Positions 5,162-9,329 of a DNA stretch of 35,750 bases are shown here, in pieces. The DNA comes from a virus. The notes beneath the pieces are model-generated. The model was given only the letters and a program-made list of their open reading frames with translations, had not been told where the DNA came from and ran no database searches. Every line of letters begins with the position of its first letter. Positions within the stretch are counted from its first letter, which is position 1. Made by a program: the position numbers and the translations under genes. The stretch covers positions 1-35,750 of the IMG/VR virus record IMGVR_UViG_3300045946_000072; one strand, 5' to 3'.

Positions 5162-6076
5162 ATGAGCTACATCGGAATGGAACTGGATGCGCTGAATATG
5201 TGCCCCAGCATCGGCTTCGCCTGCGGCTTGGATGCCGCGAGGGTGTGCCATGGCCTCATGGAGATGTGGGCCTACGTCTTTCGCACCGAGGAAGAGGTCC
5301 TCGATGGGACGCGCATCCGGGGCTTCATGTACGGCAGCGAAGGCGCAGCCGCGGCGCTTGTGTCCTTCGGGATGCTGGAGCCGAGGGACGGTAATAAATA
5401 CCGAGTCAAGGGCACCGACCGACTCCTGGGTGTCCGAAAAGCGCGCCGTGCCGGCGGCCTGGCGGCCGTGGCGAATGGGAACCTTCGTCGAGGGAAAGAG
5501 TCGGCCAAACGTGAAAACAGCCCTGGAGAGCTAGCTGGAGGCCTAGCTGGAGGCCTAGCTGGAGGCCAGCTGGAGACCAGTTCCCAGCTGCGCTCCAGCT
5601 GCGCTCCAGCTCTTACACCGACTACCGACTACCGACTACCGACTACCGAGGTGAAAAACCTAGCGAGCGTCGCGCAAAGCGCGCCGCCGCCGCCCAAGCG
5701 CCGCGGGCGAACAGTAGGCGAAAGGCCTACGGCGCCAAACCCTCGCCATCATCCGCTGCAGCTCGCCATGGAACGCGCGCACCTTGACGCAACAGGCCAG
5801 ACGTACGCGATGACGGCCAGAGACCCGACCGGTCTTGCTCGACTCGCGTCAAGCCCACTCACGGACGATGAGATTTTGCGGCGCTGGGAGATTGCTCTGG
5901 GAAGCAGTGGCTTCGACAAGCCCACGGATATCTTCGATTTCGCGAGCAAGGTGAATCGCTACGCGCGCAACGTCGTGGTGGCCACGAAGCTGACGGGCAC
6001 TACGGATTCAGCCAGCTACGACTGGAGCGACGGCGGGGGCTTCAATGAGCTGAATCGAACCGGCGGTGCGGCATGA
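5162..6076 (+). CDS. O-like replication initiator (replisome organiser) with internal origin repeats
   Basis: Residues about 25-90 look like the winged-helix N-terminal domain of phage replisome organisers: M-E-M-W-A-Y-V-F, D-G-T-R-I-R-G-F, A-A-L-V-S-F-G-M-L-E-P and D-G-N-K-Y-R-V-K-G. A low-complexity linker (about 118-165) follows, then a helical C-terminal part (about 195-285, D-D-E-I-L-R-R-W-E-I-A-L-G-S). The linker is encoded by repeated DNA with inverted copies (5531-5650), as in lambda O where the origin lies within the gene. The next gene encodes a DnaC-like loader, which fits initiator-plus-loader organisation. GGGAGGAA just upstream is a good ribosome-binding site. The role is inferred from layout and weak motifs. 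Confidence 0.65.
   Translation: MSYIGMELDALNMCPSIGFACGLDAARVCHGLMEMWAYVFRTEEEVLDGTRIRGFMYGSEGAAAALVSFGMLEPRDGNKYRVKGTDRLLGVRKARRAGGLAAVANGNLRRGKESAKRENSPGELAGGLAGGLAGGQLETSSQLRSSCAPALTPTTDYRLPTTEVKNLASVAQSAPPPPKRRGRTVGERPTAPNPRHHPLQLAMERAHLDATGQTYAMTARDPTGLARLASSPLTDDEILRRWEIALGSSGFDKPTDIFDFASKVNRYARNVVVATKLTGTTDSASYDWSDGGGFNELNRTGGAA
5531..5650 (+). repeat. Iteron-like repeat cluster, candidate replication origin
   Basis: Three exact tandem copies of CTAGCTGGAGGC (5531-5566) are followed by a fourth, diverged copy. The octamer AGCTGGAG occurs at 5533, 5545, 5557 and 5568, and its reverse complement CTCCAGCT at 5593 and 5604. Four exact 7-bp tandem repeats ACCGACT (5617-5644) come next. The 7- and 11-bp periods are not codon multiples, so selection acts on DNA and not only on protein. 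Its position inside an O-like gene ahead of a helicase-loader gene suggests an origin. Binding and origin activity are inferred. Confidence 0.6.
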
Positions 6077-6921
6077 GCTGCCCGGATGGATTCGACACCA
6101 TCGAGTCCGTGCGCGAGCGAGTAGAGCGCTGGGGCGCCCGGTGCTCCGCAGCGGAGTACGGCGCAAACGGCGAGGAGTCGTTTAAAAGCCGCCTGCGCCG
6201 CGCCATTGAGTCCTGGCGGCTCCAGCGGGATTATGAGGCCCAGAACCCCGAAGTCCTCGCAGAAAAGCAGCGGAGGGCCTTAGAAGCGGAAATTTTGGAC
6301 CGCCGCCGACGCTGCGACGAGCATGAGGCCCGTTTCTACGCCGAAACCCCTAACGCATTGCGGCGCATGGGGCTCAAGGAGCAGGAGATTGGCGCCCTCG
6401 GCGACCTTCGGCCCACGGACGCGGTCAACGCCGTGGAGGCATGGCGGACTGGCGCGCGGCAATTCCTAGTTCTCGGCGGGCGTACGGGCGGAGGGAAAAC
6501 AATCGCCGCGGCGAGCCTGCTCATGCACGCGAAGGCCCGCTGGAAGTCGGAAAGCTTCGAGGGGTGGTTTTGGGAGACGGGCCGTGCGCGATTCGTGAAG
6601 GCCACGGAACTGGCGCGGCTGAGCTACTACGGCGAGGAAACGCGGGACAAGCTCGATGCCCTCGTCATCGTTCCCATGCTCGTGGTGGACGACTTGGGCG
6701 CAGAGCAAACGTCGGACGGATGGCGCTCCACCCTGCTCGATGTGCTTGATGCGCGGGTGCGCGAGGGTAACCGGACCTGTATCACGACCAATCTAAGCGA
6801 AAAGCCCAAGCCGGGTGAGCGCCGCTTCTCGGAGCATGTCGGTGAGCGCGTGTTCCGCAGGCTCAAAGACTTCGGGCACTTCGTGGCGGTGAACGAAAAG
6901 AGCAAGGCGGAGGCGGCATGA
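6073..6921 (+). CDS. DnaC-like helicase loader (AAA+ ATPase)
   Basis: The 282-residue protein has Walker A G-R-T-G-G-G-K-T at 136-143, Walker B L-V-V-D-D-L-G-A-E at 203-211, a sensor-1 C-I-T-T-N-L at 236-241, and an arginine-rich end R-V-F-R-R-L-K at 259-265. This is the DnaC/IstB pattern. The N-terminal 130 residues are helical and charged and would contact the host replicative helicase or the initiator. It should load host DnaB-type helicase at the phage origin. The start overlaps the end of the O-like gene in ATGA, matching the usual initiator-loader pair. Confidence 0.88.
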   Translation: MSCPDGFDTIESVRERVERWGARCSAAEYGANGEESFKSRLRRAIESWRLQRDYEAQNPEVLAEKQRRALEAEILDRRRRCDEHEARFYAETPNALRRMGLKEQEIGALGDLRPTDAVNAVEAWRTGARQFLVLGGRTGGGKTIAAASLLMHAKARWKSESFEGWFWETGRARFVKATELARLSYYGEETRDKLDALVIVPMLVVDDLGAEQTSDGWRSTLLDVLDARVREGNRTCITTNLSEKPKPGERRFSEHVGERVFRRLKDFGHFVAVNEKSKAEAA

Positions 6922-7445: not shown

Positions 7446-7663
7446 TGGCGAGTCTAGAGCCGCGGCCAGGATTCAATTGGGAAATAGTGCGTTGGTCCAT
7501 GCGCGCAGAAGACAGCTGCTCTTACTGCGACGTTCAGATTCCAGAGAGACAGGTGCCGCTTCGGCTCTGGAGGAAGGGCGGTCATATGGGCGCGCAGTTT
7601 TGCGAAGAATGCCAGCGCGCGTGGTGGGGCATCGAAGGTTTTGATGATGAGGGCGAGACATGA
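7442..7663 (+). CDS. Small CxxC zinc-finger-type protein (73 aa)
   Basis: Two pairs of cysteines, C-S-Y-C (about 26-29) and C-E-E-C (about 54-57), are spaced as in a small zinc ribbon around a short beta hairpin (V-P-L-R-L-W-R-K-G-G-H). The start is either GTG at 7442, overlapping the preceding stop, or the next codon, ATG at 7445. The function is unknown; nucleic-acid or protein binding would be typical. Confidence 0.7.
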   Translation: MMASLEPRPGFNWEIVRWSMRAEDSCSYCDVQIPERQVPLRLWRKGGHMGAQFCEECQRAWWGIEGFDDEGET

Positions 7664-7965
7664 GCGACCCGGTCCGTTTCGCGCGCCGCTACCTGGAGCA
7701 GCGCAAGGCTCAGCTTGAGGCGGAGAATGCGCGGCTGCGGGAGGCGCTGACCGAGGCGCTCGAAGAATGGGGCTACTGCGCTCAATACAAGGGCGATTAC
7801 TTGGCAAAGAAGCACGGCGACGGAGAGCGCATCGCGGAGTGGCGAGCCGTGCTTAACATTGCTCCGTGCGCCGCCCTCTCCGGGCCGCGCACGGTTGATA
7901 GGGTTGATAGTCCGGTTGATAGTCCGGAGGAACTATCAACCATCGACACGAGAGGCGAGTCGTGA
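7660..7965 (+). CDS. Coiled-coil hypothetical protein with repeat-encoded tail (101 aa)
   Basis: The N-terminal half is a charged helix (E-Q-R-K-A-Q-L-E-A-E-N-A-R-L-R-E-A-L-T-E-A-L-E). The tail contains V-D-R-V-D-S-P-V-D-S-P-E-E-L-S, translated from a cluster of GGTTGATAG repeats and an inverted copy (7893-7941). The protein family is unknown. Because the tail follows the DNA repeats, the coding sequence here may be shaped by a DNA site. Confidence 0.65.
   Translation: MSDPVRFARRYLEQRKAQLEAENARLREALTEALEEWGYCAQYKGDYLAKKHGDGERIAEWRAVLNIAPCAALSGPRTVDRVDSPVDSPEELSTIDTRGES
7893..7941 (+). repeat. GGTTGATAG repeat cluster with perfect inverted copy
   Basis: GGTTGATAG occurs at 7893, 7902 and 7914. 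The last two are parts of an exact 12-bp tandem, GGTTGATAGTCC. An exact inverted copy, ACTATCAACC at 7932-7941, pairs with 7914-7923 across an 8-base loop. The 12-bp period equals that of the cluster at 5531. It may be a protein-binding site (operator or accessory origin element) or an RNA hairpin near the end of the gene. Confidence 0.55.
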
Positions 7966-8252
7966 ACGCAAGCATGGGCGAGCTACCGTGCGGCAACTGC
8001 GGGCATCGTCTCAGCGAGCATCCGCCCGATGCGCCGTGTTGCGACAAGTGTAGCGGCTGGATACTCGTGTCGGATGCCGCGCTATGCGCCCAGGCCCGCC
8101 GTGAAGCGCTAGAGGATGCCGCGAAGGTGGCGGAAGGGTTCATCGGCACGACGCCTGGCGTGCTGGACACCGGTGAGATTCATCGCAGCGGGACCGCTGG
8201 CAACATCGCCTCCGCCATCCGCGCCTTGGCTGCGCGTGAGGATGGGACGTGA
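7962..8252 (+). CDS. Zinc-finger-type small phage protein with REALEDAAKVAE tail (96 aa)
   Basis: The N-terminus has C-G-N-C-G-H (10-15), then C-C-D-K-C (26-30), a compact zinc-ribbon pattern. The C-terminal half has R-R-E-A-L-E-D-A-A-K-V-A-E-G and G-N-I-A-S-A-I-R-A-L, a helix pair common in small phage and prophage proteins of unknown role. The next gene carries a similar pair, so the two share a domain. Start is GTG at 7962 overlapping the previous stop. Confidence 0.7.
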   Translation: MNASMGELPCGNCGHRLSEHPPDAPCCDKCSGWILVSDAALCAQARREALEDAAKVAEGFIGTTPGVLDTGEIHRSGTAGNIASAIRALAAREDGT

Positions 8253-8506
8253 GCGCCAGCCGCGCACAGCTGGAGGCGGAACTTGAGCGCGCGTGGGGTT
8301 CGTTCCGCGAGTCAGAGAAGCGGCGCATAGCGCTCGAGCGCAACCTCGCCCACGCTAGGCTCGCCACCCTTGAGGAAGCGGCGAAGGTGGCGGAGTCCTA
8401 CGAGCCAGAATGCGAGTCATGCCCGCGTGGCGTGGCGACCGCCATTCGCGCCCTCGTCGACGTGGAGGGCGGGGCTAAACTCGAGACAAACTCGGAGGCG
8501 ATGTGA
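8249..8506 (+). CDS. Small phage protein sharing the AAKVAES...AIRAL domain (85 aa)
   Basis: An N-terminal charged helix (L-E-A-E-L-E-R-A-W-G-S-F-R) is followed by L-E-E-A-A-K-V-A-E-S, a short C-x-x-C (C-E-S-C, about 55-58) and V-A-T-A-I-R-A-L-V. The second half is paralogous to the end of the preceding protein. Start is GTG at 8249 in a GTGA overlap. The function is unknown. Confidence 0.65.
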   Translation: MSASRAQLEAELERAWGSFRESEKRRIALERNLAHARLATLEEAAKVAESYEPECESCPRGVATAIRALVDVEGGAKLETNSEAM

Positions 8507-8691
8507 GCATTCAGTTTTTCTGGCGCGGCCTGGTGGTAACTGTGGACCATCCTCACGAAGTGGAAGCGATTGTCAGGTTGGGCGAGAAGATGGACGTGGA
8601 GGACAGGAGGCCCAAGGGTCTAGAAAAGTCAGTGCCCGAGTTGATGCGCGAGCGCGAGGCTAAATTTAGTGAACTGGCTAATTCGAGATGA
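8503..8691 (+). CDS. Small hypothetical protein (62 aa)
   Basis: A GTG start overlaps the previous stop. The N-terminus (S-I-Q-F-F-W-R-G-L-V-V-T-V) is beta-like and the rest helical and charged. It was not recognised. Its coupling at both ends in the early operon is the main support. Confidence 0.55.
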   Translation: MSIQFFWRGLVVTVDHPHEVEAIVRLGEKMDVEDRRPKGLEKSVPELMREREAKFSELANSR

Positions 8692-9329
8692 AGAACTATC
8701 GACCAGCGCAAGTGGGAGAGCGATTCGGCCTCTGGACGGTGGTTGGGGCTGGGCCGCGACGCGGCAGTCACGCAACCGTTCTCGTGCGCTGTCAATGCGG
8801 CCGCGAACGTGTGTCGCTGCTCTCGAATCTGCGCCGAAAAACGACGGTGGGTTGCTGGGTATGTGCCCATCCCGGTCGTGCGGCCATATGCGATTGTTGC
8901 CGTCGGAGCTTCCGGCCTCGTCATGCCGCCTCTCGTTTCTGCTCAAAGGAGTGCGCCGGGCGGCACCGTGTTATCTGGCGCGAGAGTCCCGAGAGGCATA
9001 GGCAATTCTTTGCGGACCGGTTCTGGGGTCATGTGGCGATTGGTGCGCCTGACGAATGCTGGAACTGGACAGGGGCGAAGCTGAAAAGCGGTGGTTACGG
9101 CGCATTCCGTCTTGATGGACTCACGCTTCGGGCGCCACGCGTGGCCTGGGCGCTCACCCATGGCGGCGAAAGCCCAGGCCAGCTCTTCGTCTGCCATCGC
9201 TGCGACAATCCTCCGTGCTGCAATCCGCGCCACCTGTTCCTTGGCACCGCCAAAGACAACACTGACGACAAGGACCGGAAGGGTCGCGGGCGCAACCAAG
9301 TCGGGCCGTGGCGGCGAGCGGCCGCGTGA
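8688..9329 (+). CDS. HNH homing-type endonuclease with N-terminal zinc fingers
   Basis: The 213-residue protein has cysteine pairs in the N-terminal 90 residues (C-Q-C, C-W-V-C, C-D-C-C, C-S-K-E-C) followed by an HNH module: D-E-C-W-N-W-T-G (about 125-132), G-Y-G-A-F, V-C-H-R-C-D-N-P-P-C-C-N-P-R-H-L-F-L-G-T (about 170-189) and D-N-T-D-D-K-D-R-K-G-R-G. This is the phage HNH_3-type nuclease. The catalytic His is in V-C-H and the metal-holding Asn/His in N-P-R-H. Such enzymes cut DNA as homing nucleases; some located near terminase genes assist packaging, but here it lies 1 kb upstream of the terminase genes. Start overlaps the previous stop. Confidence 0.9.
   Translation: MKNYRPAQVGERFGLWTVVGAGPRRGSHATVLVRCQCGRERVSLLSNLRRKTTVGCWVCAHPGRAAICDCCRRSFRPRHAASRFCSKECAGRHRVIWRESPERHRQFFADRFWGHVAIGAPDECWNWTGAKLKSGGYGAFRLDGLTLRAPRVAWALTHGGESPGQLFVCHRCDNPPCCNPRHLFLGTAKDNTDDKDRKGRGRNQVGPWRRAAA

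Follow-up and report, generated by a model that had tools for sequence, protein, structure and literature searches.

A probable replication origin of iterons and tandem heptamers inside the initiator gene of a temperate tailed phage

The window analyzed here, the whole 35,750 bases of the linear IMG/VR virus record IMGVR_UViG_3300045946_000072, contained an integrase gene (97-1449) along with tailed-phage genes. Its terminase shared 55% identity with that of Myxococcus phage Mx9, which makes a myxobacterial host plausible on sequence similarity, and pieces of this terminase were identical in three other IMG/VR contigs that stop short of the region described below. A gene on the forward strand (5162-6076) encoded a 304-aa protein, P0001, for which profile searches returned no Pfam match above cut-off and no PHROG or NCBIfam match. 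An AlphaFold2 model built with nine homologous sequences comprised two domains, both with pLDDT ~90, separated by a disordered linker: a predicted N-terminal winged-helix domain, helix-rich with a beta hairpin (residues 6-105, encoded at 5177-5476), the linker itself (residues 111-195, 5492-5746, mostly pLDDT <50), and a helical C-terminal domain (residues 198-276, 5753-5989, pLDDT mostly 81-92). The best viral fold matches of P0001 were phage replisome organizers and replication initiators, and the best solved-structure match of the N-domain was the winged-helix domain of MCM8 (Z 6.7, 2.2 Å over 64 residues), a score below the level that excludes common arrangements. Together with homology and the open frame, the predicted structure supports P0001 as a two-domain replication initiator by architecture. 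The label "O-like" given to this gene in a preliminary description holds in that architectural sense and does not extend to proven homology with lambda O. Directly downstream, a DnaC-like AAA+ helicase loader, P0002, was encoded on the same strand (6073-6921); an AAA+ profile match (phrog_50, E 3.8e-18; IstB Pfam above cut-off) and a P-loop (GGRTGGGKT) place it among DnaC/DnaI-like loaders, and it was 32% identical to p20 of Mx8.

Two kinds of repeat fell within the linker-coding DNA, so that short sites cluster in the middle of the initiator gene. Four direct copies of AGCTGGAG on the forward strand (5533-5540, 5545-5552, 5557-5564 and 5568-5575), with starts spaced 12, 12 and 11 bp, were followed on the reverse strand by a degenerate inverted copy, TCCCAGCTG (5582-5590; two mismatches in nine against CTCCAGCTG), and by two exact inverted copies, CTCCAGCT (5593-5600 and 5604-5611), spaced 11 bp. 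The last of these ended 5 bp before a tandem array, (ACCGACT)4.7 (5617-5649, forward strand), whose copies are identical to one another, and the array ran into an A-rich stretch beginning GGTGAAAAACC (5650-5668, forward strand) that is weak in the window and clearer in several relatives as (T)AAAAGA. The preliminary description had listed four direct and two inverted iterons, on spacings of 11 and 12 bp, and four tandem ACCGACT copies within 5531-5650; all six iterons proved exact, the degenerate copy joins them, the array amounts to 4.7 copies, and the range is correct for iterons and heptamers. The 120 bp concerned contained seven clustered 8-mer copies, where dinucleotide shuffles averaged 2.9 and codon shuffles 2.6 and 0/200 of either reached seven, and ranked first for repeat density among 891 segments of that length in the record; the next-densest segments (27.8-30.4 kb) fell in Gly-rich repeat-coding genes.

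Cumulative GC skew of the record had its minimum near 1.5-2.5 kb and a step near 6 kb, and did not mark 5.5 kb as an origin. Between 5500 and 7500, GC skew climbed from ~0.03 to 0.13-0.15 at ~6 kb with the direction of transcription unchanged. A second two-orientation repeat cluster (7893-7936), consisting of three copies of GGTTGATAG (spacing 9 and 12) together with a single inverted CTATCAACC, was situated at the 3' end of an ORF (7660-7965); it had no sequence kinship to the AGCTGGAG sites and is possibly the binding site of another regulator. Among typical operators are inverted repeats to which winged-helix-turn-helix proteins bind. The iterons might likewise form an autoregulatory operator of the replication operon, with the true origin elsewhere, for example near 7893-7936, a reading with which the inverted repeats, the second cluster and the undiagnostic GC skew are all compatible. 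However, a mid-gene site ~370 bp past the start codon with an adjoining destabilized element fits an origin better than an operator, the same plan recurs in many phages, and we consider the operator highly unlikely.

The preliminary description had also argued that repeat periods not divisible by three reveal constraint at the level of DNA. This stands for the periods of 11 and 7 bp, which break codon phase, and fails for 12 bp, a multiple of three; moreover, slippage in a tolerant linker can itself yield periods of 7 and 11, so the period argument is insufficient alone and the case for a function at the DNA level is carried by comparison with relatives. With the P0001 protein alone as query, phages, plasmids, viral contigs and genome contigs yielded no relative, nor did genome contigs searched with a three-sequence alignment; relatives were reached by way of the heptamer DNA pattern and by alignments. 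Scanning 2.9 million viral contigs for four copies of ACCGACT retrieved a single contig, L008, where the array occupies the corresponding place in a distant P0001 homologue (33% identity over 253 aligned columns) and follows different iterons. L014 was found by protein in an alignment search and also carries iterons and heptamers, while wider heptamer patterns led to L016, L017, L032, L042, L068 and L077; no relative of L032 was found in phages. These eight and the window form our nine-gene set. In L008, the ORF directly after the initiator (8105-8716, reverse strand) contained a long run of 6-bp repeats (AYANANAYAYADANAY).

All eight distant homologues shared a common plan of short iterons, then ACCGANN heptamers and usually then an A-rich stretch. 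The heptamers occupied the same gene position in 9/9 genes and the array began at codon position 3 in each, and 8/9 genes had six to nine copies of an 8-mer in the 120 bp before the array, where the null mean was near 3 and 0/200 shuffles reached the count. Among the relatives, iteron clustering was significant in 7/8, the exception being L042 with three copies. Iterons were usually present in both orientations and mostly 11 bp apart, and the array, always in the sense direction, lay 3-5 bp from the last of them in most homologues, a position that is not independent of its neighbors. The iteron words themselves differed (AGCTGGAG, AGCCGGG, AGCCGAGA, AGCTCGGCTCA, AGCCGGAG, GACGCTCT and GAGCCGAG). 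Absence of the repeats from close relatives, which the preliminary description had named as evidence against an origin, is thus the opposite of what was found, since the homologues keep the iteron and heptamer plan while the iteron words change. Every relative except L014 (7/8) either came to light by means of the heptamer pattern or fits it, so their constant ACCGA is partly built in and cannot count as independent evidence. The search did not dictate that the matches should fall within homologous initiator genes, at a shared location and in a single frame, on the sense strand and beside iterons. L077 matched replication-initiation PHROGs through its own C-domain, and the C-domains of two homologues, P0003 and P0004, weakly matched Mx8 p19 (E 0.2 and 0.3), which RefSeq names a replication initiation protein. 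A recognizable P-loop loader was encoded downstream in the window only, of the nine loci.

We evaluated how far such heptamers extend beyond this family. A census of stretches with four ACCGANN copies gave 67, among which replication initiators were the commonest class of sense-strand gene (six DUF1376 proteins, PHROG initiation and O-like families, and the P0001 family); none of the antisense ORFs across arrays matched a replication family. Some fifty of the stretches lay elsewhere as plain repeats, which shows that the heptamer is not confined to origins. Several candidates were set aside: the ACCGAYT arrays of L009-L012 were plain repeats outside initiators, that of L018 matched by chance within a tail-like gene, and that of L019 lay in a small unclassified HTH-like ORF. 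L028, L044, L066, L074 and L075 each had two distant ACCGANN arrays outside initiators, several near gene starts or ends, which look like dispersed simple repeats.

Initiators found by protein were scored for 7-bp periodicity against 500 codon shuffles. Phages reached through the L077 C-domain scored 0/500 (BA3, X14, PGA and 234P9) or 9/500 (41E34), and 9/12 phages reached through a DUF1376 initiator scored 0-2/500, with arrays all at 44-56% of the gene. IFTN6, VvAW1 and Mx8 had a 6-bp array in place of the 7-bp one; by the same periodicity score a 7-bp array was absent in zth2-2, Carin1, D478 and the short Mcat25 ORF, and 0/89 control ORFs from the same loci reached that level with either a 6-bp or a 7-bp array. 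In DUF1376 and other protein-found initiators the array was usually (A)ACC-A-N-N and mid-gene, and iterons were mixed, being clear in D478, AM106, P19250A, VvAW1, 234P9, Vib1.183 and BA3 and absent by the same measure in about half. Excising and phasing the arrays by hand gave 81 heptamers with the consensus (A/T/C)-A-C-C-(A/G)-N-N, in which the A at position 2 was present in 81/81. We set aside a two-tier G-quadruplex built from the GG that recurs every 7 on the complementary strand, as the A before C is invariant (81/81) and the second C is found in only 70/81. In Vibrio phage 1.183.O (MG592549; L097, 1261-1290), the deposited annotation places a CRISPR spacer within the DUF1376 initiator gene, just before the array; a misreading of the repeats there is more likely.

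These comparisons bear on whether the repeats need have any function in cis. Simple repeats could have grown by slippage in a linker tolerant of sequence, in keeping with the predicted disorder of the linker, the identical heptamer copies in the window and the ACCGANN-like arrays elsewhere in viral contigs, which are often noncoding. Against such growth, diverged homologues retain both iterons and heptamers, ordered alike and within a few bases of each other; the heptamer copies of protein-found initiators often differ from one another at free positions yet keep AAC every 7 nt, which argues against fresh slippage; every initiator array is in the sense direction, with no replication-family match among antisense ORFs; and the control ORFs had no array. 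We therefore regard slippage without function as quite improbable. The repeats could also be kept for the encoded peptide, LTPTTDYRLPTT, for instance as a motif touching the loader or helicase, given that the reading frame is the same in 9/9 homologues with a similar peptide (SPNTEHRTPN), as it is in L019. Yet variation tracks the 7-nt period rather than the codon, the rare codons ACA, CGA and TCA are retained in GC-rich genes (partly a matter of ascertainment), DUF1376 initiators with the same kind of DNA array encode other peptides (NREPRTEN, LTTNQEP), and the peptide lies in a linker predicted to be disordered, all of which leave selection on the peptide extremely unlikely.

Initiator domains appeared shuffled between L008, L014, L016, L017, L032, L042, L068 and L077 on one side and L084-L091 on the other, with the joint at the array. 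Besides or instead of a part in opening, the array might provide short homology at the junction of N- and C-domain for module exchange between phages: one N-domain, iteron and heptamer module occurs with different C-domains (window, L077, L042, L017 and L068), and the same C-domain occurs with different N-domains (BA3, X14 and VvAW1), the array lying at the joint. Exchange leaves low duplex stability and proximity to iterons unexplained, however, and may follow from the conservation of an element at the joint; we find this explanation of the array very unlikely. In all nine P0001-type genes, computed stability put the array and its flank lowest or nearly lowest among the gene's 40-bp duplexes, an extreme matched by 0/20,000 random placements. 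The array is 57% GC within a 63% GC gene, and the easily opened tract that adjoins the repeats is therefore one of relative, computed stability rather than AT-rich in absolute terms.

In phage lambda, the origin lies in the middle of gene O and consists of iterons and an AT-rich tract, with the helicase-loader gene next (PMC7466680); initiator bound to iterons opens the neighboring tract, and the loader brings DnaB (PMC7466680, PMC5043065). The window resembles it in having iterons and then an easily opened tract mid-initiator gene, the heptamer array holding the place of the AT-rich tract, with a helicase-loader gene next (PMC7466680), and the lambda-like layout put forward in the preliminary description is supported by the domain architecture, the adjoining DnaC-like gene and the plan of the homologues. 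We consider it very probable, on these comparisons, that replication of a temperate tailed phage starts at 5531-5650, in an origin on the oriLambda plan, with the initiator acting on the iterons and the heptamers as an unwinding and loading element. By analogy with oriLambda, from which the roles given here to the initiator are taken, the product of the surrounding gene would bind the AGCTGGAG iterons through its winged-helix N-domain; spaced at about one helical turn in two opposed groups, the sites could support a wrapped complex, the strain of which would open the duplex where the heptamer array and A-rich flank adjoin them. As the proposed contact with loader or helicase, the C-domain would then bring the DnaC-like loader of the next gene and host DnaB onto the opened strand. 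We infer binding, opening and helicase loading alike.

Unlike oriLambda, the window has 8-bp cores that fall into two opposed groups with 11-12 bp spacing, and 57% GC heptamers rather than an AT-rich tract, its initiator lacks detectable similarity to lambda O, and its loader is DnaC-like rather than lambda P. The p19-p20 pair of Mx8 is similar in placing an initiator gene before a DnaC-like gene, and in the weak C-domain matches of P0003 and P0004; its p19 linker contains GTGGACGTCCACGGACGTCCGTGGAC and a 6-bp purine array. Its N-domain and repeat words differ, and hexamers replace heptamers. Initiators of the DUF1376 (PF07120)/primosomal-protein type likewise have an N-domain and a linker with a 7-bp ACC array mid-gene (9/12 sampled), and part of them have iterons ~11 bp apart as in the window, whereas their N-domain is unrelated or very distant, their heptamer is (A)ACCANN rather than ACCGANN, and their iterons differ. 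Short repeats within an unwinding element are known from the 13-mers of oriC and RK2 (PMC5043065). Iteron plasmid origins and oriC share with the window helix-phased initiator sites beside such repeats (PMC5043065), but here the repeats are 7-mers and lie inside the initiator gene.

Origins embedded in initiator genes are already known; what looks undescribed is the variant with a heptamer element, which is common to initiators whose N- and C-domains are unrelated. Searches of the open-access literature gave no account of such an array, and subscription journals may contain one. The element may bind a common factor, may only ease opening, or may mainly mark a recombination joint between domain modules. 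More tentatively, and with rather less than even confidence, we suggest that a 7-bp element with the consensus (A/T/C)AC(C)(A/G)NN may be a general, unrecognized origin module of tailed phages. It would lie between initiator-specific iterons and the code for the C-domain, accompany initiators whose N- and C-domains are unrelated, occur in phages that infect hosts from Chlorobi and Gammaproteobacteria to (probably) Myxococcota, and serve strand opening or loading through one common factor. Most environmental phages have unmapped origins. Should the plan hold, an origin would be readable from sequence, through iterons that precede an ACC heptamer array where the linker of a two-domain initiator is encoded, and the element raises a testable question, namely why the same 7-bp period lies beside iterons despite different DNA-binding and loader-binding domains.
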